Position numbers and translations under genes: made by a program
NCBI GenBank assembly: GCA_021325355.1
Contig: JAJPHI010000019.1
Coordinates: forward strand, 124,001-188,000
Direction: 5' to 3'
Source: Pseudomonadota bacterium
GTDB taxonomy: Bacteria > Desulfobacterota > Binatia > Binatales > Binataceae
DNA: 64,000 bases
Shown here: positions 3,737 through 62,169 of the stretch, one piece after another
Layout: every line of letters begins with the position of its first letter
Numbering within the stretch: position 1 is the first letter of the stretch
The notes under the pieces: model-generated
What the model saw: the letters and a program-made list of their open reading frames with translations, nothing else
The model's database searches: none
Told to the model about the DNA's origin: nothing

Positions 3737-5362
3737 ATGCCCAAGCGTGAACCCCCCTCGCGTGACCTTGTCCTGAAGCGCAACTCGGTTGAAAAGCTCA
3801 AGGCTGAGCTCTTCCCCACCGAGCTCGCTGGACAATGGCAGCGGTTGGTCGATACTCCGTACGAAAAGCTGCCGGAGGAGGATATCGTTCGGCTGCAATG
3901 GTTCGGCCTTTATCACGACAAGCCGAAGGTCGGAACCTTCATGATGCGGGTGAAGATCCCGAGCGGGATCCTGAGCGCGCAGGGGCTGCGGACGATTGGC
4001 GAGGTGGCGGAAGAATTCGGTCGTGATCAGGGCGAACTGACCACCCGTCAGAATATTCAGCTTCACTACATGACTCTCGACCGCTTTCCGCTGATTCTGG
4101 AGCGCCTCAAGGCCGTCGGTTTGACCACGATGGGCGGATGCGGCGACGTTGTGCGCAATATCACCGGATGCCCGGTCGCCGGCATCAACCCCGACGAACT
4201 GTTCGACGTGACCGGCGTTATCCGTGAAGCTGCCGGCTTCTTTTACGGCAATCGCGAGTATTCCGATCTGCCGCGCAAGCACAAGATCACGATCGCGGCC
4301 TGCCCCTTCCAGTGCAATGCGCCGGAGATCAACTGCGTCGCGCTGGTCGCCGTACGCAAGGATGATCGCGAGGGTTTTGCCGTGCGGGTCGGCGGTGGAC
4401 AGTCTTCGACCCCGCGCCTGTCGCGCCATCTGGGGGTCTTCGTGCCGCGCGACGAGGCCACGGCGGTGCTGCGCGCGATCCTCGACGTGTGGCGTCTGAC
4501 TACCGAGTACCGGATTTCGCGGGTCAAGGCGCGGCTCAAATTCATGATCGACGACTACGGCGTCGAGGGCTTCCGCGAGCTGGTCGAACAGCGGCTCGGG
4601 CGCAAGCTCGAAGACCTCGCCGAGCTGCCGCTGCCGGAGAGCGAAAGCGACCATCTGGGAGTTCACGAGCAGAAGCAGCCGGGGCTCTTTTATGCCGGCT
4701 TCCCGGTTTATCTGGGCATGATGAGCGGGCGGCAAATGCAGGCGCTGGCGGATTTGACGATGGAATTCCAGGGCGATATCCGTCTCACTCGCCGCCAAAA
4801 TCTTATCGTGACCGGGATTCCGCAGGCCCGGCTCGACGAGACTCTGGCCCGTGTTGCTGAACTCGGCTTTCCGCTGACCGCCAACGGCCTCTACGGCTCG
4901 TCGATCGGATGTATCGGCGATCCTCACTGCAACTACGCGGTTACGCCGACCAAGGAAAAGCTCGCCAGCGTCGTCCAGCATCTGGTCGGACAGTTTGGCG
5001 ATGCGGTCGCTGGCCTCAAGATCAATCTCGACGGCTGTCCTCACGCCTGCGCGCAGCATTGGACGGGCGATATCGGACTCCAGGGCACCACCGGCCGCGG
5101 ACCCAATGGCGAGCCGCTCGAGGCGTTCGACGTGATTCTGCGCGGCGGGCTCGGCCGCGACGCCGCTATCGGGCGGCCGCTCCTGCGCCGGGTACCCTCG
5201 GCCAAGATCGAAGAGACGGTCGCGCGACTCTTCGCCGGATATCTCGAAGAACGGCTGCCCGGCGAGTCGTTCACGCAATTCTGTAAACGCACGCCGGACG
5301 CTGCCCTGGTGACGATGGGCAGTGCTGAAGCCTCAACCAGTCTGGAGCAGGCACGCTTATGA
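3737..5362 (+). CDS. sirohaem/[4Fe-4S] sulfite (or nitrite) reductase, ferredoxin type
   Basis: Six-electron reductase, 541 residues, most likely reducing sulfite to sulfide in assimilation. It has the duplicated ferrodoxin-like plus nitrite/sulfite reductase architecture. First half: TTRQNIQLHY, then NITGCPVAG. Second half: TRRQNLIVTG. The cluster and sirohaem ligands are Cys392-x5-Cys398 (CIGDPHC) and Cys434-x3-Cys438 (CPHAC). Sequence alone does not separate sulfite from nitrite reductase. The four-base overlap with an APS reductase gene and the Rrf2 neighbour favour sulfite. No clear Shine-Dalgarno is visible before the ATG. Confidence 0.9.
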   Translation: MPKREPPSRDLVLKRNSVEKLKAELFPTELAGQWQRLVDTPYEKLPEEDIVRLQWFGLYHDKPKVGTFMMRVKIPSGILSAQGLRTIGEVAEEFGRDQGELTTRQNIQLHYMTLDRFPLILERLKAVGLTTMGGCGDVVRNITGCPVAGINPDELFDVTGVIREAAGFFYGNREYSDLPRKHKITIAACPFQCNAPEINCVALVAVRKDDREGFAVRVGGGQSSTPRLSRHLGVFVPRDEATAVLRAILDVWRLTTEYRISRVKARLKFMIDDYGVEGFRELVEQRLGRKLEDLAELPLPESESDHLGVHEQKQPGLFYAGFPVYLGMMSGRQMQALADLTMEFQGDIRLTRRQNLIVTGIPQARLDETLARVAELGFPLTANGLYGSSIGCIGDPHCNYAVTPTKEKLASVVQHLVGQFGDAVAGLKINLDGCPHACAQHWTGDIGLQGTTGRGPNGEPLEAFDVILRGGLGRDAAIGRPLLRRVPSAKIEETVARLFAGYLEERLPGESFTQFCKRTPDAALVTMGSAEASTSLEQARL

Positions 5363-6195
5363 TCGAATCGAGCTCGAACGGAAAAGTCGCGGCGATGGAA
5401 CCGCAGGGCGAACATATCGTCATGGACGAACTCGAAGCCGGCGAGGCGGCGGTCGAGCTCGACAGCCAGGAGCCGCAGGAAGTGCTCGCCTGGGCGATCG
5501 CGAAATTCGGCCGACGTCTCGGCCTCTGCTCGAGTTTTCAGGCCGACGGCGTGGCCCTGATCGACATGGCGTGGCGGATCGACCCAGGCATCCGGGTCTT
5601 CACGATCGACACCGGGCGTCAGCCCGAAGAAACCTATCGGCTGATCGACCGAATTCGCGACCGCTACGGGATCCGCACGGAAGTCTTCATGCCGGATACC
5701 GACGTCGTTCAGCAGATGGTCACCCGGCATGGCAATAATCTCTTCTACCGCGACGTCAATCTGCGCCTGCTGTGCTGCCAGGTGCGCAAAGTGCTGCCGC
5801 TCCGCCGTGCCTTGATGAGTTACGACGCGTGGATAACCGGTCTCCGCCGCGATCAATGGGCGACCCGGTCGAATATCCGCAAGCTCGAAATCGATCATGA
5901 CCACGGCGGTATCGTGAAGTTTGCGCCGCTCGCCGATTGGACCGACGAAGAGGTCTGGGACTATATCCGCAGCAACGACGTCCCCTACAACGAGCTTTAC
6001 GACAAGGGCTTCAAATCCATCGGATGCGCTCCCTGCACGCGCCCGGTTGCGGACGGCGAAGATCCGCGTTCCGGTCGCTGGTGGTGGGAGACCGGCGCGC
6101 CGAAAGAGTGCGGGATGCACTGCGCGATCGAGACCGGAGGGTTCGAGCACGAGCTCGCCGCCCTGCTCGGCCATCACGGCAATCCGCGCACGTAG
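5359..6195 (+). CDS. cysH: assimilatory adenylylsulfate (APS) reductase, thioredoxin-dependent
   Basis: Reduces adenosine 5'-phosphosulfate to sulfite with thioredoxin; 278 residues. The PAPS-reductase fold is seen with SSFQADGVAL and FTIDTGRQPEET. Cys139-Cys140 (LLCC) and Cys223-x2-Cys226 (GCAPC) are the CC...CxxC ligands of a [4Fe-4S] cluster, which points to APS rather than PAPS as substrate. The catalytic cysteine is Cys251 in KECGMH. The start codon overlaps the stop of the sulfite reductase gene (ATGA), so the two are translationally coupled. Together they take APS to sulfide. Confidence 0.93.
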   Translation: MIESSSNGKVAAMEPQGEHIVMDELEAGEAAVELDSQEPQEVLAWAIAKFGRRLGLCSSFQADGVALIDMAWRIDPGIRVFTIDTGRQPEETYRLIDRIRDRYGIRTEVFMPDTDVVQQMVTRHGNNLFYRDVNLRLLCCQVRKVLPLRRALMSYDAWITGLRRDQWATRSNIRKLEIDHDHGGIVKFAPLADWTDEEVWDYIRSNDVPYNELYDKGFKSIGCAPCTRPVADGEDPRSGRWWWETGAPKECGMHCAIETGGFEHELAALLGHHGNPRT

Positions 6196-6261
6196 CTGCC
6201 GAGCGGCGCGCCGCGTTCGGATGCTGCACCGGGGCGCGCGGACTGTTAACGTTTCGCGCTG

Positions 6262-7059
6262 ATGAGCTCGCGCGTCGCCCATGGCCTATTCGCCGCCGTA
6301 CTGCTCGCCCTGATGATTCCGGCGGGCTGCAGCTTCATTCTCGGACATACGTTGAACGTATCGGCCGTGCCGAATATCGAAGCCGTGGCCCTGCCGCAGA
6401 GCGTCTTCGCGCTGGACGAGGCGGCCGGTCCGCCGGCGTCCGGCAAGTGGGTCATGGTCAGCTTTCTTAAGGCTGGCGCTTTCCGCAACAGCACCGAGCC
6501 GAACGGCTTCGATCTGTCGCCGATTCTCGCGATGGATCCCTTCGGCAACGTATGGGCGCCGCCGTTGCCGACCGCGCAGGCCGTGTTTGTACCCGCCGCC
6601 AGCTATGAACGGTTGAAGGCCAACCCCGAGGAATGGGACCAGCGCTTTGTTATCGAGCTCGCGATCAACCGCGGCCCCGAGGGAAAGACCGGCATCCGCG
6701 AAGCGTCGCGACTGGCGAGCGAAGACCCCGCGAAAGTAATCTGTCAGGACCATCTGACGCGGCAGATCATCAGCGCGACGCCGGCTGATTTGGTTTATGA
6801 ATCCCGCTTCGCCGATTGTCCCGACTTCGGCCTCGACCGCGTGGTGTTGACGCGCGAGGCCTTTGGTAACTGGGATGCGGCGCGCGGATCGCAGGCAATC
6901 TTTTCCTTCTCGTATGAAGCGCTGGGCGATCGCCTGTCACCGCTGCAACGCCGCGAAGGCAATCGGCTCATCTGGGCGCCACGCCTGTTGCTGCAGGAGC
7001 CGCCCGGCGAAAAGCATCCGATCCTGCTCGTCGAGCAGCTTGATCTCGTGCCTTCCTGA
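6262..7059 (+). CDS. putative lipoprotein of unknown function
   Basis: Unrecognised 265-residue protein. It starts with a short signal peptide ending in a lipobox (IPAGCS, Cys23), so it is probably a lipid-anchored envelope protein. The rest is soluble, without repeats and with no motif I recognise; two further cysteines (in VICQD and FADCPD) could form a disulfide. It begins 66 bases after the APS reductase gene and may simply be read through from it. Nothing links it to sulfur metabolism. Confidence 0.65.
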   Translation: MSSRVAHGLFAAVLLALMIPAGCSFILGHTLNVSAVPNIEAVALPQSVFALDEAAGPPASGKWVMVSFLKAGAFRNSTEPNGFDLSPILAMDPFGNVWAPPLPTAQAVFVPAASYERLKANPEEWDQRFVIELAINRGPEGKTGIREASRLASEDPAKVICQDHLTRQIISATPADLVYESRFADCPDFGLDRVVLTREAFGNWDAARGSQAIFSFSYEALGDRLSPLQRREGNRLIWAPRLLLQEPPGEKHPILLVEQLDLVPS

Positions 7060-50770: not shown

Positions 50771-51853
50771 ATGTCGCAAAGCAATGGCCACGGTAATGGA
50801 GCAGTGACGGACGCCAAGGGAGGCCGCGGTCCCGCTCGCCTGGTGATCCCGGCTGATGGCTTCCTTGCGCCCCCGCCGATAAGCCAGCCGAATATCTTTC
50901 CGCTCGAATGGCCGGTGCACAATGAGGAGCTCGCCGCGCTGTATGAAAAGGCCAAGCAGCAGGCCTGGAATCCTTCCGACCTACCCTGGGATCAATTGCG
51001 GCCGGAGGATTTCACCCCCGAAGAGCGGCTCGGCATCATGTATTGGTACGCGGTTCTGGCGGTCTTTGACGGGTCGGGGCCGGCGGTTTTTGCCCGGGCG
51101 ATGATCCACACGTACGAAATCCACGCCGAAGACCCGATCCGCAAGTGTTTCTTCGCCGTGGCTCGCGACGAGGTGAATCACGAAGAATGTTGCCAGCGCG
51201 CGATCCAGCGGCTGATGCCCGGCGGACCGCTGCACTTCGGCGCCGCGACGGACCTCGAACGCGCTGCCCTGAACAATATCGAATGGCTGTATCACAACGG
51301 CGGACGTTATTGGCGCGGCTACTCCGCTTCGCTCGACAAGTATCCGCTCTCGGTGCTTTTCACTTCCTTTCTGCTGGGCGAGGTCGCCGCTTCGACATTG
51401 TTCTATGGGATGGCGCAACGGACCAACCGCGCCGTGTTCAAGGAAGTGTTCAAGAAGGTCGGTCAGGACGAAAGCCGCCATCTGGCGACCTGTCTCAAGA
51501 TGCTCGAACGGGATTGGCCGGGGCTCGCGCAGGAACACAAGGATTTGATTACGCGCCAGCTCCGCGCGGGCTTCGTCTTTCTCTCGATGATCCTCTGGGA
51601 ACCGCCGAATCTGTTCTGGGAGCTGCCGCCCTATTTCATCGACAACCATCGTCTGTTGATCGATTGTGCGCGGCAGGGCGGACTCGGCGTGCTGAGTTTC
51701 GACGAACAGGCTGACAACTGGCGTTACGCGATCGCCAAGGTCAAAAAGGTGGTCGAGGACTGGGGCATTAAGTTTCCGGCGATTCCGGAGCTCGATCTGG
51801 ACGGCGTTGACGTCGGCAATATCACCGCCGCGGATATTATCCCGGTCTTCTAG
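50771..51853 (+). CDS. ferritin-like di-iron protein, putative oxygenase
   Basis: 360 residues, helical. Two ExxH motifs frame an inner glutamate, as in ribonucleotide-reductase-R2-like and AurF-like di-iron enzymes: Glu134 with His137 (DEVNHEE), Glu204 (GEVAAST) and Glu234 with His237 (DESRH). Glu116 is a candidate for the remaining ligand. The first 45 residues are Gly/Pro-rich and probably disordered. The reaction is unknown: hydroxylation, N-oxygenation or desaturation are possible. It follows the TetR gene, under a palindrome that should be its operator; the Rieske ferredoxin gene beyond TetR may be the electron donor. Confidence 0.8.
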   Translation: MSQSNGHGNGAVTDAKGGRGPARLVIPADGFLAPPPISQPNIFPLEWPVHNEELAALYEKAKQQAWNPSDLPWDQLRPEDFTPEERLGIMYWYAVLAVFDGSGPAVFARAMIHTYEIHAEDPIRKCFFAVARDEVNHEECCQRAIQRLMPGGPLHFGAATDLERAALNNIEWLYHNGGRYWRGYSASLDKYPLSVLFTSFLLGEVAASTLFYGMAQRTNRAVFKEVFKKVGQDESRHLATCLKMLERDWPGLAQEHKDLITRQLRAGFVFLSMILWEPPNLFWELPPYFIDNHRLLIDCARQGGLGVLSFDEQADNWRYAIAKVKKVVEDWGIKFPAIPELDLDGVDVGNITAADIIPVF

Positions 51854-55860: not shown

Positions 55861-57138
55861 GTGCGTTTTGAACTGTTAATCGCGGCTCGCTATCTCCGCA
55901 CCCGCCGGCGCGATCGTTTCGTTTCGCTGATCGCGGCGATCTCGCTCGGCGGCATCGCGATCGGCACTTTCGCCCTGACCGTGGTGCTGGCGGTGATGAG
56001 CGGCTTCCAGGAGGATCTGCGCGATCGCCTGCTCGCCTTTAACCCCTACGTGAGGCTGACCGCCAGCAACCCCGATAGCGGTTCGCTCGATCAGCTCGCC
56101 GCCAGGATCCGTGGTTTGCCCGGCGTCGTGAATGTCGCGCCCTACGCCGCCTCGGAGGTGCTGACGGTCTCGACGACGCCCGAGGGCGTGCCGGCCTACG
56201 TTGCCGCCGGCGCGCTGCGTGGCCTCGACCTTACCGATCAACAGTCGGCGCATGACCTGCAGAGCACGCTCACGGTCGGCGCGATCGCCTCGCTGGCAGA
56301 TACCCATCCCGTGGTTATCACCGAGCAGAAGACTCGGCGTACGGTCGCTTTACCCGGAGCAATCATTGGCAAAGATCTGGCTGCGGAGTTAGGCGTGGCC
56401 CCGGGTATCCCGATTATCGTCATTTCGCCGGCCAGTCTTGGTCCGGGCGCCACGCCGCGATTGCGGCGCTTTCTCGTCACCGGGCTGTTTCACTCGGGGA
56501 TGTACGAATACGACTCGTCATTGATTTTCGTCGGCCTGCCAGAAGCCCTGCAGTTGCTCGGCGGCGACCCGCAACTCGAACGCGGCCTCGATATTAGGAC
56601 CCGCCATCTGTTCGACGCGCCGCGGGACGCGCAGCGAATCGCTGCGGTTGCCGGAGCGGGCTTTACGGTGAGCGACTGGACAGAGGCCAACGCCCCGCTT
56701 TTTTCCGCGCTTAAACTCGAGAAGTTCACCTACTTCGTGGTCCTGCTGCTGATAGTGCTGGTCGCGGCTTTTAATGTTATCGCCACGCTCGTGATGGTGG
56801 TGATGGAGCGGCGCAAGGAAATCGCCATCCTGCGGGCGATCGGCGCGCGGCCCCGCGCCGTGATGGCGATCTTTCTCGCGCAGGGCACCGCGCTCGGTGT
56901 CGGCGGCACCGCGGTCGGGGTAACCGCGGGCTGGCTCTTCACCGAACTCATGAACCGCTATCATTTCATCCGTCTGCCGGCTGACATGTTTATCATCAGT
57001 GCGGTACCGGTCCGCTTATATGCCGTGAACTTTTATGCGGTGGCGCTGGCCGCGATCGGGCTGTGCGCGGTGGGCGCGCTTTACCCCGCCTTGCGCGCCC
57101 GCGCCCTGCGCCCGGTCGAGGTGCTGCGTTATGAGTGA
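55861..57138 (+). CDS. lipoprotein-releasing ABC transporter permease LolC/LolE
   Basis: 425 residues, inner-membrane part of the Lol system that extracts lipoproteins for the outer membrane. It has the typical start FELLIAARYLRTRRRDRFVSLIAAISLGGIAIG, one helix, a large periplasmic domain (about 50-270), then three helices starting at FTYFVVLLLIVLVAAFNVIATLVMVVMERRKEIAILRAIGA. Only one permease gene is present, so it probably works as a homodimer (LolF type), unlike E. coli LolC plus LolE. GTG start. It overlaps the lolD gene by 8 bases. Confidence 0.9.
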   Translation: MRFELLIAARYLRTRRRDRFVSLIAAISLGGIAIGTFALTVVLAVMSGFQEDLRDRLLAFNPYVRLTASNPDSGSLDQLAARIRGLPGVVNVAPYAASEVLTVSTTPEGVPAYVAAGALRGLDLTDQQSAHDLQSTLTVGAIASLADTHPVVITEQKTRRTVALPGAIIGKDLAAELGVAPGIPIIVISPASLGPGATPRLRRFLVTGLFHSGMYEYDSSLIFVGLPEALQLLGGDPQLERGLDIRTRHLFDAPRDAQRIAAVAGAGFTVSDWTEANAPLFSALKLEKFTYFVVLLLIVLVAAFNVIATLVMVVMERRKEIAILRAIGARPRAVMAIFLAQGTALGVGGTAVGVTAGWLFTELMNRYHFIRLPADMFIISAVPVRLYAVNFYAVALAAIGLCAVGALYPALRARALRPVEVLRYE

Positions 57139-57859
57139 TAAGGCGCGTGCGCTCGCGCCGCGCGTCGATCCTTCGCCGCTGCTGCGCGCCCAGCGAATCG
57201 CCAAGTCCTTTTACGAAGCCGGCCGCGAGATCGTGGTTTTGCGCGAGCTCAATCTCGACGTGGCGGCGGGCGAAGAAATCGCCATCGTCGGCCAGTCCGG
57301 AGTCGGCAAATCGACTTTGCTTCATGTGCTGGGAAGCCTCGAGGTTCCGACCGGGGGCACGATTCTGTTTCAGAACGAAGATGTCTTCGCGATGGACGAT
57401 CGGCGCACCGCCGAATTTCGCAATCATCAGCTCGGCTTCGTGTTTCAGTTTCACTATCTGTTGGGCGACTTCACCGCTCTCGAAAACGTGATGATGCCCG
57501 CGCTGATTGCCCGTCTGCCTGAAAAGGAGGCCGCCGAGCGCGCGGCCGAGATGCTGGCGCTGGTCGGGCTCGGCGACAAACTTCATCGCCGACCCGCCGA
57601 AATGTCCGGTGGCGAGCAACAGCGCGTCGCCGTCGCCCGCGCCGTCGTCATGCGCCCGCAACTGGTTCTCGCCGACGAACCGACGGGCAATCTCGATCCG
57701 CATACTGCTGATGAGGTCCACGGGCTTCTGCACGATCTGAATCGCCGGCTGGGATTGACGCTGATTGTCGCGACGCACAACGAACGCCTGTCGCGGAGCA
57801 TGGGACGGACGCTGCGCCTGCGCGACGGTCAGCTCTTCGACGAGCCGCGCAGTGCGTGA
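57131..57859 (+). CDS. lolD: lipoprotein-releasing ABC transporter ATPase LolD
   Basis: 242 residues. Walker A is GQSGVGKST, the ABC signature MSGGEQQR, and Walker B LVLADEPTGNLD, followed by the switch His in ATHNE. The Q-loop is FVFQFHYLLGDFTALENV, as usual for LolD. The ATG at 57131 overlaps the permease stop, which couples the two. GTG-independent starts further up lie in the permease frame and were left out. Confidence 0.93.
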   Translation: MSDKARALAPRVDPSPLLRAQRIAKSFYEAGREIVVLRELNLDVAAGEEIAIVGQSGVGKSTLLHVLGSLEVPTGGTILFQNEDVFAMDDRRTAEFRNHQLGFVFQFHYLLGDFTALENVMMPALIARLPEKEAAERAAEMLALVGLGDKLHRRPAEMSGGEQQRVAVARAVVMRPQLVLADEPTGNLDPHTADEVHGLLHDLNRRLGLTLIVATHNERLSRSMGRTLRLRDGQLFDEPRSA

Positions 57860-57997: not shown

Positions 57998-58654
57998 ATG
58001 AGAACGATCATCGACGAAATTGACCAGGTCGTGGCAGGGCGCGCGCTGCTGAACCATCCTTTTTATCAAGCCTGGACCGCAGGAACCCTGAGCCGCGAAG
58101 CTTTGCGCGACTATGCGGCGCAATATTACCGTCACGTCGAGGCCTTTCCGCGCTATCTGAGCGCGGTTCATTCGCGCTGCGACGATCGGTTCGTGCGTCA
58201 GGCATTGCTTGAAAATCTGATCGAAGAGGAGCGCGGCCCCCGGAATCATCCCGAACTGTGGCTGCGCTTTGCCGAGTCGCTTGGGGTTTCGCGCAGCGAG
58301 GTGCAGGCCGCCACACCCCGCCCGACGACTGAGGATCTCGTGACGACGTTTCACCGACTGGCCCGCGAGGGTTCCGTCGCCGACGGCCTGGCCGCGCTCT
58401 ACGTTTACGAATCGCAGATGCCCGCGGTGTCGGTCGCCAAGATTGACGGCCTCCGGCGGTTCTACGGCTTTGTGAACGAGGATTCTTACGCCTTCTTCAG
58501 CGTCCATCGCGAGGCCGACGTCGACCATTCACGCACCATTGCGGGGCTCCTCGAGCGTTCGTGCTCATCCAGAGTCGAGTCCGACGTAGTCGGTGCGGCG
58601 CGGCAGGCGGCCGAGGCACTATGGTCGATGCTCGACGGTATTCCGCTCGGTTAG
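57998..58654 (+). CDS. CADD-family protein, probable non-canonical pABA synthase
   Basis: 218 residues of the PqqC/TenA-like fold. It resembles CADD, which makes p-aminobenzoate for folate by consuming its own tyrosine and a lysine at a di-metal site. All key positions of chlamydial CADD, as I recall them, are found shifted by four: Tyr23 (HPFY), Glu77, His84, Glu138 (YESQ), Lys148 (AKIDG), His170, Asp174 and His177. The ATG at 57998 is nearest to the family start. No pabABC gene is in the window. folC lies 26 kb away. A PqqC-type oxidase is less likely. Confidence 0.82.
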   Translation: MRTIIDEIDQVVAGRALLNHPFYQAWTAGTLSREALRDYAAQYYRHVEAFPRYLSAVHSRCDDRFVRQALLENLIEEERGPRNHPELWLRFAESLGVSRSEVQAATPRPTTEDLVTTFHRLAREGSVADGLAALYVYESQMPAVSVAKIDGLRRFYGFVNEDSYAFFSVHREADVDHSRTIAGLLERSCSSRVESDVVGAARQAAEALWSMLDGIPLG

Positions 58655-58701: not shown

Positions 58702-59196
58702 TCAGCTTGCCGCGCGAGGCCGCGCGCGATCGCTCAAGATAGCTTCCAGTAAACGGCGACTCGACTGGTAGATACCCGGAGCCTCGCTCTCACGCGGCCC
58801 GGCGACGTTAAGTATCAGGTCGTGGGGCAGCCTCTGCAGCCACGCGCGAACGCGCGGCGCGGCGGCAGGATCGTCGGCGCGCACCAGCATCAACGGTCGC
58901 TCGAGTTGTTTCGCGATTGCGATCGTCAGTTCAGTTCCGTGGGAGACGCTTTCGCGGCCGCCTAGCAGAATCAAGGTCGCGTCGCTGTCGCGTGCGTTCA
59001 GCCGCGTGCGCTCGGCGGGATCGGCGTCGGCAGTCGGCCGCATCCGCGGATACCTGGGCAAAATCCCCGGCGGGTCCGGATAATCCTCGGCCCAGCCATC
59101 TTTCGGTACCCATCCCCCGTATTCGAGGCCGAGCGCGATCGCGCTATCGAGAGCGGCGCGATCGACACCGCTCTGTCCGCCCGAGACGATTTTCAT
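58702..59196 (-). CDS. putative molybdenum-cofactor carrier protein
   Basis: 164 residues. MKIVSGGQSGVDRAALDSAIALGLEYGGWVPKDGWAEDY is the hallmark of the MoCo-carrier family, a Rossmann-like fold related to lysine decarboxylase-like (LOG) and DprA proteins. It continues with DATLILLGG and SHGTELTIAIAKQLERPLMLV. It may hold or protect molybdenum cofactor, though for most members this is not shown. No molybdenum enzyme is adjacent. The ATG at 59196 fits the family. Confidence 0.78.
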   Translation of the reverse strand: MKIVSGGQSGVDRAALDSAIALGLEYGGWVPKDGWAEDYPDPPGILPRYPRMRPTADADPAERTRLNARDSDATLILLGGRESVSHGTELTIAIAKQLERPLMLVRADDPAAAPRVRAWLQRLPHDLILNVAGPRESEAPGIYQSSRRLLEAILSDRARPRAAS

Positions 59197-59273
59197 CGAG
59201 CGACGGCGCCCCGGCCTCCTCCGTTCGGTGAACAGCAAGAGGCCAGGAGCGCGATTGGATGATACAGCGTCCG

Positions 59274-61176: not shown

Positions 61177-62169
61177 TTATTCATGAGCTTGCGGCGGGTT
61201 GCCTTTCAGCCGATAAACTGCGCCGGTCTTGGTCGTTCCGATCGAGACCCAGTCGCCGCCAATCTCCTGGAGCCGGATGAAGAAGCGCCGACAGCGGTCG
61301 ATGGCTTTTTCATGGAGGTCGCTCGAACGTTGAAACTTGCACTCGTAAGAGAATTCGCCGACGAGCAATTTGTGATGGCCGCGCTCGCGCCATAACGCGG
61401 CGTTGCACTTGGCCACCACCCCTTTGCCGAAATCCAGCTCGCCGAGCTCCTGCAGGACCTCCTCCACCACCGTGTGATTGACCAGATCGATCTTCCGGCT
61501 CTTTTCATCGCGCAGCATCGCGAGCGCCGGAAACAGATTGGCGAGTTCCACCACCGAAGTCCCATTCAGCTTCTGCGCGCGATCGAGCGTGAACTGCACG
61601 TTGTGCGAATAGAGCATCCGGATGCCGCCGACGCGGTCGCGCAAGGGCAGCGCCTCGGCCTTGAACTTGATCAGGTAGGCGACGGGCACGTTCGGACGCA
61701 CGTCGGTGCGGGCCGAAGTCGCGTAATCCGGGTGGCGGAATTTGAACACCACTTCGGGATCGCCCACCGGAAACCCGTCCTCGTAGAGCACGCGCCGCCG
61801 AAGAATGAACGAATGGTTGTAGAGCGCGAAATTTTTAGTATCGAGAAAGATGACCTCGCGAATACGCGGACGCAGGTTCTTGTAACCCTTGGCCGAAAAG
61901 CCCACGCCCTCATCGTCTGCCGCCCGCCGCACCAGTTTGGCGTACTCCTGGAAACTCGCGACGGAGCTGAAAAAGTCCGGCTTCAGGATAATCTTGCACT
62001 CGAGATAATGGATCTGATCGAGAGGGCTGCCGTCACTGTACGTGGCGCGCGCGAGATCGAACTCGGAAGGCACCCTTGCGCCTGCGGCCATAATTTTACC
62101 CTTGCGAGCGCTTCCGGCCTGACGTCTTTCCCGGGCAGTCGGCCGAACCGCGGACGGTTTCCGCTTCAT
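61177..62169 (-). CDS. unknown protein, possibly CYTH-like fold
   Basis: 330 residues, or 304 if started at ATG 62091, which has AAGGG 8 bases upstream. The first 26 residues are very Lys/Arg-rich. The core shows features of triphosphate-tunnel (CYTH/VTC) proteins: an ExK start (HYLECKI), FLDTKNFALYNHSFILRRRV, VFKFRHPD, IKFKAEAL and, late, EFSYECKF with alternating charged residues on strands. The match is by eye and weak. No neighbour suggests a role; it lies between an amidohydrolase and the chromate transporter genes on the same strand. Confidence 0.6.
   Translation of the reverse strand: MKRKPSAVRPTARERRQAGSARKGKIMAAGARVPSEFDLARATYSDGSPLDQIHYLECKIILKPDFFSSVASFQEYAKLVRRAADDEGVGFSAKGYKNLRPRIREVIFLDTKNFALYNHSFILRRRVLYEDGFPVGDPEVVFKFRHPDYATSARTDVRPNVPVAYLIKFKAEALPLRDRVGGIRMLYSHNVQFTLDRAQKLNGTSVVELANLFPALAMLRDEKSRKIDLVNHTVVEEVLQELGELDFGKGVVAKCNAALWRERGHHKLLVGEFSYECKFQRSSDLHEKAIDRCRRFFIRLQEIGGDWVSIGTTKTGAVYRLKGNPPQAHE

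Follow-up and report, generated by a model that had tools for sequence, protein, structure and literature searches.

The window analysed here, a stretch of 64,000 nucleotides from a draft genome of the family Binataceae, carries an open reading frame (ORF) at 57998..58654 on the + strand that raises the question of how this bacterium obtains p-aminobenzoate (pABA) for folate. An earlier note had described the product as a CADD-type self-sacrificing pABA synthase, which would provide the folate route if the genome lacked pabA, pabB and pabC. The ORF starts with an ATG at 57998, as read in the DNA, and its product has 218 residues. The NCBIfam model TIGR04305 (CADD) matched it with 278.1 bits against a cut-off of 200 (E 4.3e-83), far beyond chance. 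When PDB chains were searched with phmmer, the top entries were two chains named 4-aminobenzoate synthase (9pj4, E 9.8e-55; 8va9, also about 1e-54) and CT610 (1rcw, E 1.5e-54), and the next was BesC (8e-13), whose own model gave the ORF 52 bits, under its cut-off of 500. Residues 4-214 aligned with residues 8-217 of CT610/CADD (1rcw) without a gap until near the C-terminus, so that the constant shift of four proposed in the earlier note holds.

The predicted structure led to the same family. An AlphaFold2 model built from 45 aligned sequences reached a mean pLDDT of 95.8, and the best solved matches found by Foldseek were CADD entries (TM 0.93-0.96). VIA-align placed the model on the CADD entries with Z scores of 32.5-33.0 (1rcw_A: Z 33.0, rmsd 1.3 Å over 213 residues, 41% identity), the next entry being PqqC (1otw_A, Z 26.4, 18% identity). 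In the model, the heme-oxygenase-like helical fold of the ORF is thus closest to CADD. The family assignment of the earlier note was borne out, since the score, the fold and the catalytic residues described below agree with the characterised synthases. The ORF shares the Pfam family TENA_THI-4/PQQC with the PQQ synthase PqqC and the thiaminase TenA, and scored 62.7 bits with PqqC and 28.4 with TenA models; these values lie far below the respective cut-offs of 240 and 130, and the genome has a separate PqqC (322.8 bits, G000:C20:66238-66843), making it extremely improbable that the ORF is either of these two enzymes.

We then compared the functional residues. The six dimetal ligands, three histidines and three carboxylates, are present as E77, H84, E138, H170, D174 and H177, and the alignment with 1RCW put Tyr23 and Lys148 on the known positions of CADD Tyr27 and Lys152; all eight residues listed in the earlier note are therefore found where CADD has them. 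According to the roles given in PMC11965152 (in part), the codon at 58064..58066 (+) would encode the sacrificial tyrosine, Tyr23 (Tyr25 in NePabS, the Nitrosomonas europaea enzyme), and that at 58439..58441 (+) the amine donor, Lys148 (Lys159 in NePabS). The same source reports for NePabS that Tyr25, Tyr41 and Lys159 are essential and that Tyr45 and Trp99 matter for pABA output; the equivalents of Tyr41, Tyr45 and Trp99 in the ORF, Tyr39, Tyr43 and Trp88, are all present. The set formed by Tyr23, Tyr39, Tyr43, Trp88, Lys148 and the six ligands was kept in all 15 Binataceae members, which were found by HMM and are free of any selection for Tyr23 or Glu77. It was also kept in 82 out of 82 rows of a wider set made up of the ORF, one sequence from the same genus and 80 named loci, these being the top 80 of 344 when ranked by similarity to the Binataceae group; here the conservation of Tyr23 and Glu77 was partly selected, since the named loci were retrieved with patterns spanning the surroundings of these two residues.

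Heme-oxygenase-like diiron oxygenases (HDOs) are a functionally diverse superfamily (PMC13108848, in part) and further HDOs occur in this genome and its relatives, so the ORF could in principle be an oxygenase of the same fold acting on a small molecule, with the CADD residues kept for structure. Tyr23 and Lys148 were kept in 15 out of 15 family members over the TIGR04305 cut-off, and both were missing from the 15 weaker Binataceae HDO matches that were read among about 60 listed. This pattern, together with the pab genes not being found in the genome, makes a small-molecule oxygenase very unlikely, and a pABA synthase is the reading that we follow. An intermediate HDO class, scoring 120-140 bits with TIGR04305 and thus under the cut-off, was considered as a second pABA synthase and rejected for the known mechanism: in all eight sequences inspected (L024-L031), Tyr23 is replaced by Trp and Lys148 by Phe or Leu. 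The four loci of this class that were compared (L199, L200, L201 and L202) have conserved RibBA-like and DsbD-like neighbours, named from their translations, and GyrB stands nearby in three of the four (by Pfam for one, by homologues otherwise); no folate gene was recognised there. Two other HDOs were observed. One lies in the genome under study (G000:C5:30713-31369, L198), matches PF14518, scores 49 bits with TIGR04305 and is by score neither CADD nor PqqC. The other belongs to a Candidatus Binatia record (L110) carrying a CADD gene with the full motif at 4001-4660 and, 1.4 kb on, an opposite-strand HDO (6068-6754) without the CADD residues.

Whether the enzyme would be needed depends on the remaining pABA genes, and we searched for them in the draft assembly (3.36 Mb in 35 contigs, completeness 95.34%, contamination 0.05%). 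PF00425 gave one match, TrpE (TIGR00564, 569.4 bits, cut-off 517.7). The TrpG/PabA model TIGR00566 gave one match over its cut-off, the TrpG that adjoins trpE (C19:59175-59729), and three further matches of at most 59.7 bits, all under the cut-off. The single PF01063 match was IlvE, with 327 bits versus 57 bits to PabC. With these matches assigned to TrpE, TrpG and the class-IV aminotransferase IlvE, pabB, a separate pabA and pabC were therefore not found with PF00425, TIGR00566 and PF01063, although a gene could be missing from the assembly, which is a 95% complete draft. In contrast, folP and folK were both present. The genome thus encodes the pABA-requiring part of the folate pathway, and no canonical route to pABA was seen in it; this is the situation that the earlier note had considered. 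CADD very probably fills the gap left by the missing pabABC genes in this folate-making genome, as judged from gene content.

In the relatives, the dimetal site is described as activating O2 and a radical as being passed to the tyrosine, which is cleaved at Cα-Cβ to leave glycine; the carboxylate oxygens of pABA come from O2 and its amine from lysine (PMC11965152 and PMC13108848, both in part). By analogy, the dimetal centre formed by E77, H84, E138, H170, D174 and H177 would activate O2, and the oxidising equivalent would pass along aromatic residues, for which Y137, Y43, W88 and Y39 are candidates, to Tyr23. The side chain of Tyr23 would then be cut at Cα-Cβ and oxidised to the carboxylate, with Lys148 supplying the amine, so that each protein molecule would yield at most one pABA. 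FolP would join this pABA to the pterin on the way to folate, and CADD would thereby take the place of pabA, pabB and pabC. Those features that can be checked by sequence and model agree with the published reaction, except for a mixed metal-tuning pair (see below). Binatota are reported to encode aerobic methylotrophy (PMC8262859, in part), which makes an O2-dependent pABA route plausible there. Among the papers listed by literature searches, none dealt with pABA synthesis in Binatota, and the word 'aminobenzoate' is absent from the main text of PMC8262859.

The position of the gene was as the earlier note had described it, after lolD and outside a folate cluster. A LolD-like ABC ATPase (57089..57859, +; TIGR02211, 279.9 bits, under the cut-off of 307.75) lies 138 bases upstream, preceded by a LolC/E-like gene (55861-57138) under its equivalog cut-off, and a circularly permuted YpsA (SLOG) family protein (58702..59199, -; PF12694, 147.6 bits) converges from downstream. 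No folate gene adjoins CADD, which is on contig C17; folK is on C1 and folP on C32, where folP stands in front of genes that read, from their translations, as diadenylate cyclase, a YbbR-like protein, GlmM and PdxJ. A conserved operon with lolD was considered and rejected: none of the 14 further Binataceae CADD loci showed it (their flanks spanned at most 1.5 kb, and 13 of them were also checked by their named copy, most with 4 kb), nor did the remaining named loci; one unrelated locus (L167) has a 30% ABC match. Since neither LolD nor the permuted YpsA was seen beside CADD in the relatives' loci examined, these neighbours give no functional hint, and we do not count them as part of the pABA function. 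Promoter and terminator scans found nothing. Elsewhere in the window, a 360-aa protein (50771-51853, +) contains two E-x-x-H stretches (DEVNHEE and QDESRHL), as might be expected of a ferritin-like diiron protein, and had no Pfam match and no PDB sequence match; a 330-aa ORF (61177-62169, -) had no Pfam match.

To place the genome among its relatives, 41 genomes of the order, all from the one family Binataceae, and 14 control genomes were compared. CADD exceeded the TIGR04305 cut-off in 15 of the 41; the controls gave a single match, under the cut-off. Among the CADD-bearing genomes, 11 had one PF00425 match and four (G018, G024, G025 and G026) had two, the second being an isochorismate synthase over its cut-off. 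PabB was accordingly seen in none of the 15, with the first PF00425 matches (about 311-332 bits) taken as TrpE by score and scanned only for the genome under study. PF01063 had one match in 14 of these genomes and none in the other. Four genomes from a different Binataceae genus (G001, G002, G006 and G007) contained a PabA-PabB fusion; none of them had CADD over the cut-off, and they served as a control that the search detects canonical genes. The fusion of G007 scored 348 bits with TIGR00553, over 328.4, and those of G001, G002 and G006 were called from PF00425 and TIGR00566 matches within one long frame. A PF01063 gene lies directly downstream of PabAB in G001, G002 and G006 (in G007 it is partial and on another contig); the best models for the PabC-like protein of G006 are named 'hypothetical protein', all under cut-off, and its PabC role is assigned by position. 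CADD and PabAB never overlapped, an outcome expected by chance with p about 0.15 and not significant, and 22 of the 41 genomes had neither, so a missing pabB is not in itself proof of replacement by CADD.

These genomes with neither route pose a real puzzle. When the comparison was restricted to the 34 genomes with a completeness of 90% or more and a contamination of 5% or less, CADD was present in 12, PabAB in four and neither in 18. All 34 carried folP and 33 carried folK, the exception (G029) being one of the 18 (G003, G005, G008, G010, G011, G019, G021, G022, G023, G027, G029-G033, G037, G039 and G040). These 18 genomes, all with folP and 17 also with folK, thus keep folate genes with neither of the two pABA routes searched for. 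Import through AbgT, the p-aminobenzoyl-glutamate transporter family (PF03806), was rejected as their source, as it was found in 0 of the 41 genomes. The weaker HDO matches would not supply pABA by the known chemistry, both Tyr23 and Lys148 being missing from the 15 that were read. Second chorismate-binding matches were likewise rejected as PabB for the most part: among 20 proteins scanned, including the TrpE of the genome under study, 15 were best matched by isochorismate-synthase models (two pieces under the cut-off), four by anthranilate synthase (the TrpE just mentioned and TrpE-like proteins under the cut-off in G003, G021 and G022) and one was the PabA-PabB fusion of G007. In G021, the second TrpE-like copy stands beside a second TrpG-type gene, and a pABA role of this pair could be suspected.

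We extended the analysis beyond the family. In a sample of 297 genomes from the phylum, as delimited by the search tool, three exceeded the TIGR04305 cut-off, all of them Binataceae. The 80 named loci fell under some 15 phylum labels, including Ignavibacteriota, Bacteroidota, Verrucomicrobiota, Acidobacteriota, Chloroflexota and Cyanobacteriota; these labels follow the submitters' titles, and Binataceae records alone appear under three of them, including Candidatus Binatota. The surprise implied in the earlier note, a CADD outside chlamydiae, is not new, given this spread and the characterisation of NePabS from Nitrosomonas, and the part of PMC11965152 drawn on here also names Wolbachia, Rickettsia, Chloroflexi and Sphingomonas as carriers. 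The ORF is a further member of an enzyme type known from Chlamydia and Nitrosomonas and is not new in kind. In a quick, unrooted tree of the 82 rows, the 15 Binataceae rows formed one group (SH-aLRT 98), most simply explained by CADD having arisen once in the family and being patchily distributed there. PabB was also looked for in 50 CADD-bearing genomes that do not belong to this group, chosen from 65 named loci by dropping most of the near-identical ones. The PabB model TIGR00553 had no match (E 0.001) in 25 of them and none over its cut-off in any. Since only 4 of the 14 controls passed this cut-off, which overlooks other types of PabB, we scanned each of the 37 matches from the remaining 25 genomes and obtained 22 TrpE (some being TrpE-TrpG fusions or pieces), 13 isochorismate-synthase-like proteins (two under the cut-off), one salicylate synthase and one PabB. 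The count of 0 out of 50 obtained by the TIGR00553 cut-off was thus wrong, and no PabB was seen in 49 of the 50, a figure that covers CADD-bearing genomes only. The exception, an Ignavibacteria draft (G349, CADD locus L122), combines CADD with a PabB that scored 460 bits with the PRK07093 model, over 275 (L216, G349:C20:9300-11400); the pair may reflect redundant routes, a recently gained gene or contigs of mixed origin.

The Ignavibacteria draft and the 18 family genomes that keep folP with neither CADD nor PabAB would suit a CADD-type protein outside the main route to folate, pABA coming from uptake or by another route and the protein having a minor or moonlighting role. We consider this unlikely for the ORF, as a gene with intact catalytic residues has been kept in 15 genomes forming one tree group, and the missing AbgT family speaks against uptake through that family of transporters. 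The reading of CADD as the pABA source of the genome under study was retained.

The one functional residue found to differ from CADD was absent from the list in the earlier note and concerns the metal. According to PMC11965152 (in part), two aromatic positions tune the metal pair: Tyr141 and Tyr170 go with Mn/Fe in CADD, Phe148 and Phe177 with Fe/Fe in NePabS, and the NePabS F148Y variant has similar activity with both metal pairs. In the ORF, the first position is Tyr137 (codon 58406..58408, +), as in CADD, and the second is Phe166 (codon 58493..58495, +), where CADD has Tyr170 and the Nitrosomonas enzyme Phe. This mixed pair matches neither of the studied wild types and equals the state of the dual-metal F148Y variant, so the enzyme is predicted, by analogy with it, to accept either Fe/Fe or Mn/Fe. 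Across the 82 sequences (query, genus-mate and the best 80 of 344 named loci), the pair was Tyr/Phe in 71, Tyr/Tyr in 11 and Phe/Phe in none, and no assayed natural example of the Tyr/Phe class was found in the literature consulted. The predominance of Tyr/Phe in this sample offers a testable prediction.

Altogether, family, fold, residues, the lack of detected pab genes and the presence of folP and folK are shown by sequence and model, and we are highly confident that the gene is a CADD/PabS-type pABA synthase standing in for the pabA, pabB and pabC not found in the genome, with reaction, stoichiometry and metal transferred from the studied relatives. A very unusual self-destroying enzyme for a vitamin precursor would thus operate in bacteria whose genome showed none of the standard pab genes, and CADD would close a gap in how Binataceae bacteria make folate; the remaining question is the pABA of the genomes where neither route was found. 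We tentatively propose, as a whole scheme that is rather doubtful, that pABA supply in Binataceae is divided among CADD, the PabA-PabB fusion and a third route used by more than half of the family, with the CADD described here belonging to the common Tyr/Phe class that would use Fe/Fe or Mn/Fe. The third route is posited because the 18 good genomes described above keep their folate genes with neither known route.

Among the known systems, the PabA-PabB fusion of G001, G002, G006 and G007 is expected to give the same product with unrelated proteins, and none was found in the genome under study. PqqC has the same fold at the lower Z score, identity and model score given above. As for NePabS (NE1434; PMC11965152, in part), the ORF has the equivalents of its Tyr25, Tyr41, Tyr45, Trp99, Lys159 and Phe177, and neither gene lies in a folate cluster, but the Phe148 of NePabS is Tyr137 here. 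Nine residues inserted in 9pj4 after residue 58 are also missing from the ORF, and the paper on NePabS mentions a loop of about 10 residues; 9PJ4 is a close relative of NePabS, as one peptide printed there fits and another is one residue off besides the reacted Tyr. From CADD (CT610 of C. trachomatis, 1RCW and 8VA9), the ORF differs in having Phe166 for Tyr170 and in not being clustered with folate genes, whereas a 2007 survey (PMC1971073, in part) placed CT610 in folate gene clusters and gave the pABA genes of C. trachomatis a question mark. With CADD it shares the fold, the six ligands, the equivalents of Tyr27 and Lys152 and, as Tyr137, that of Tyr141.
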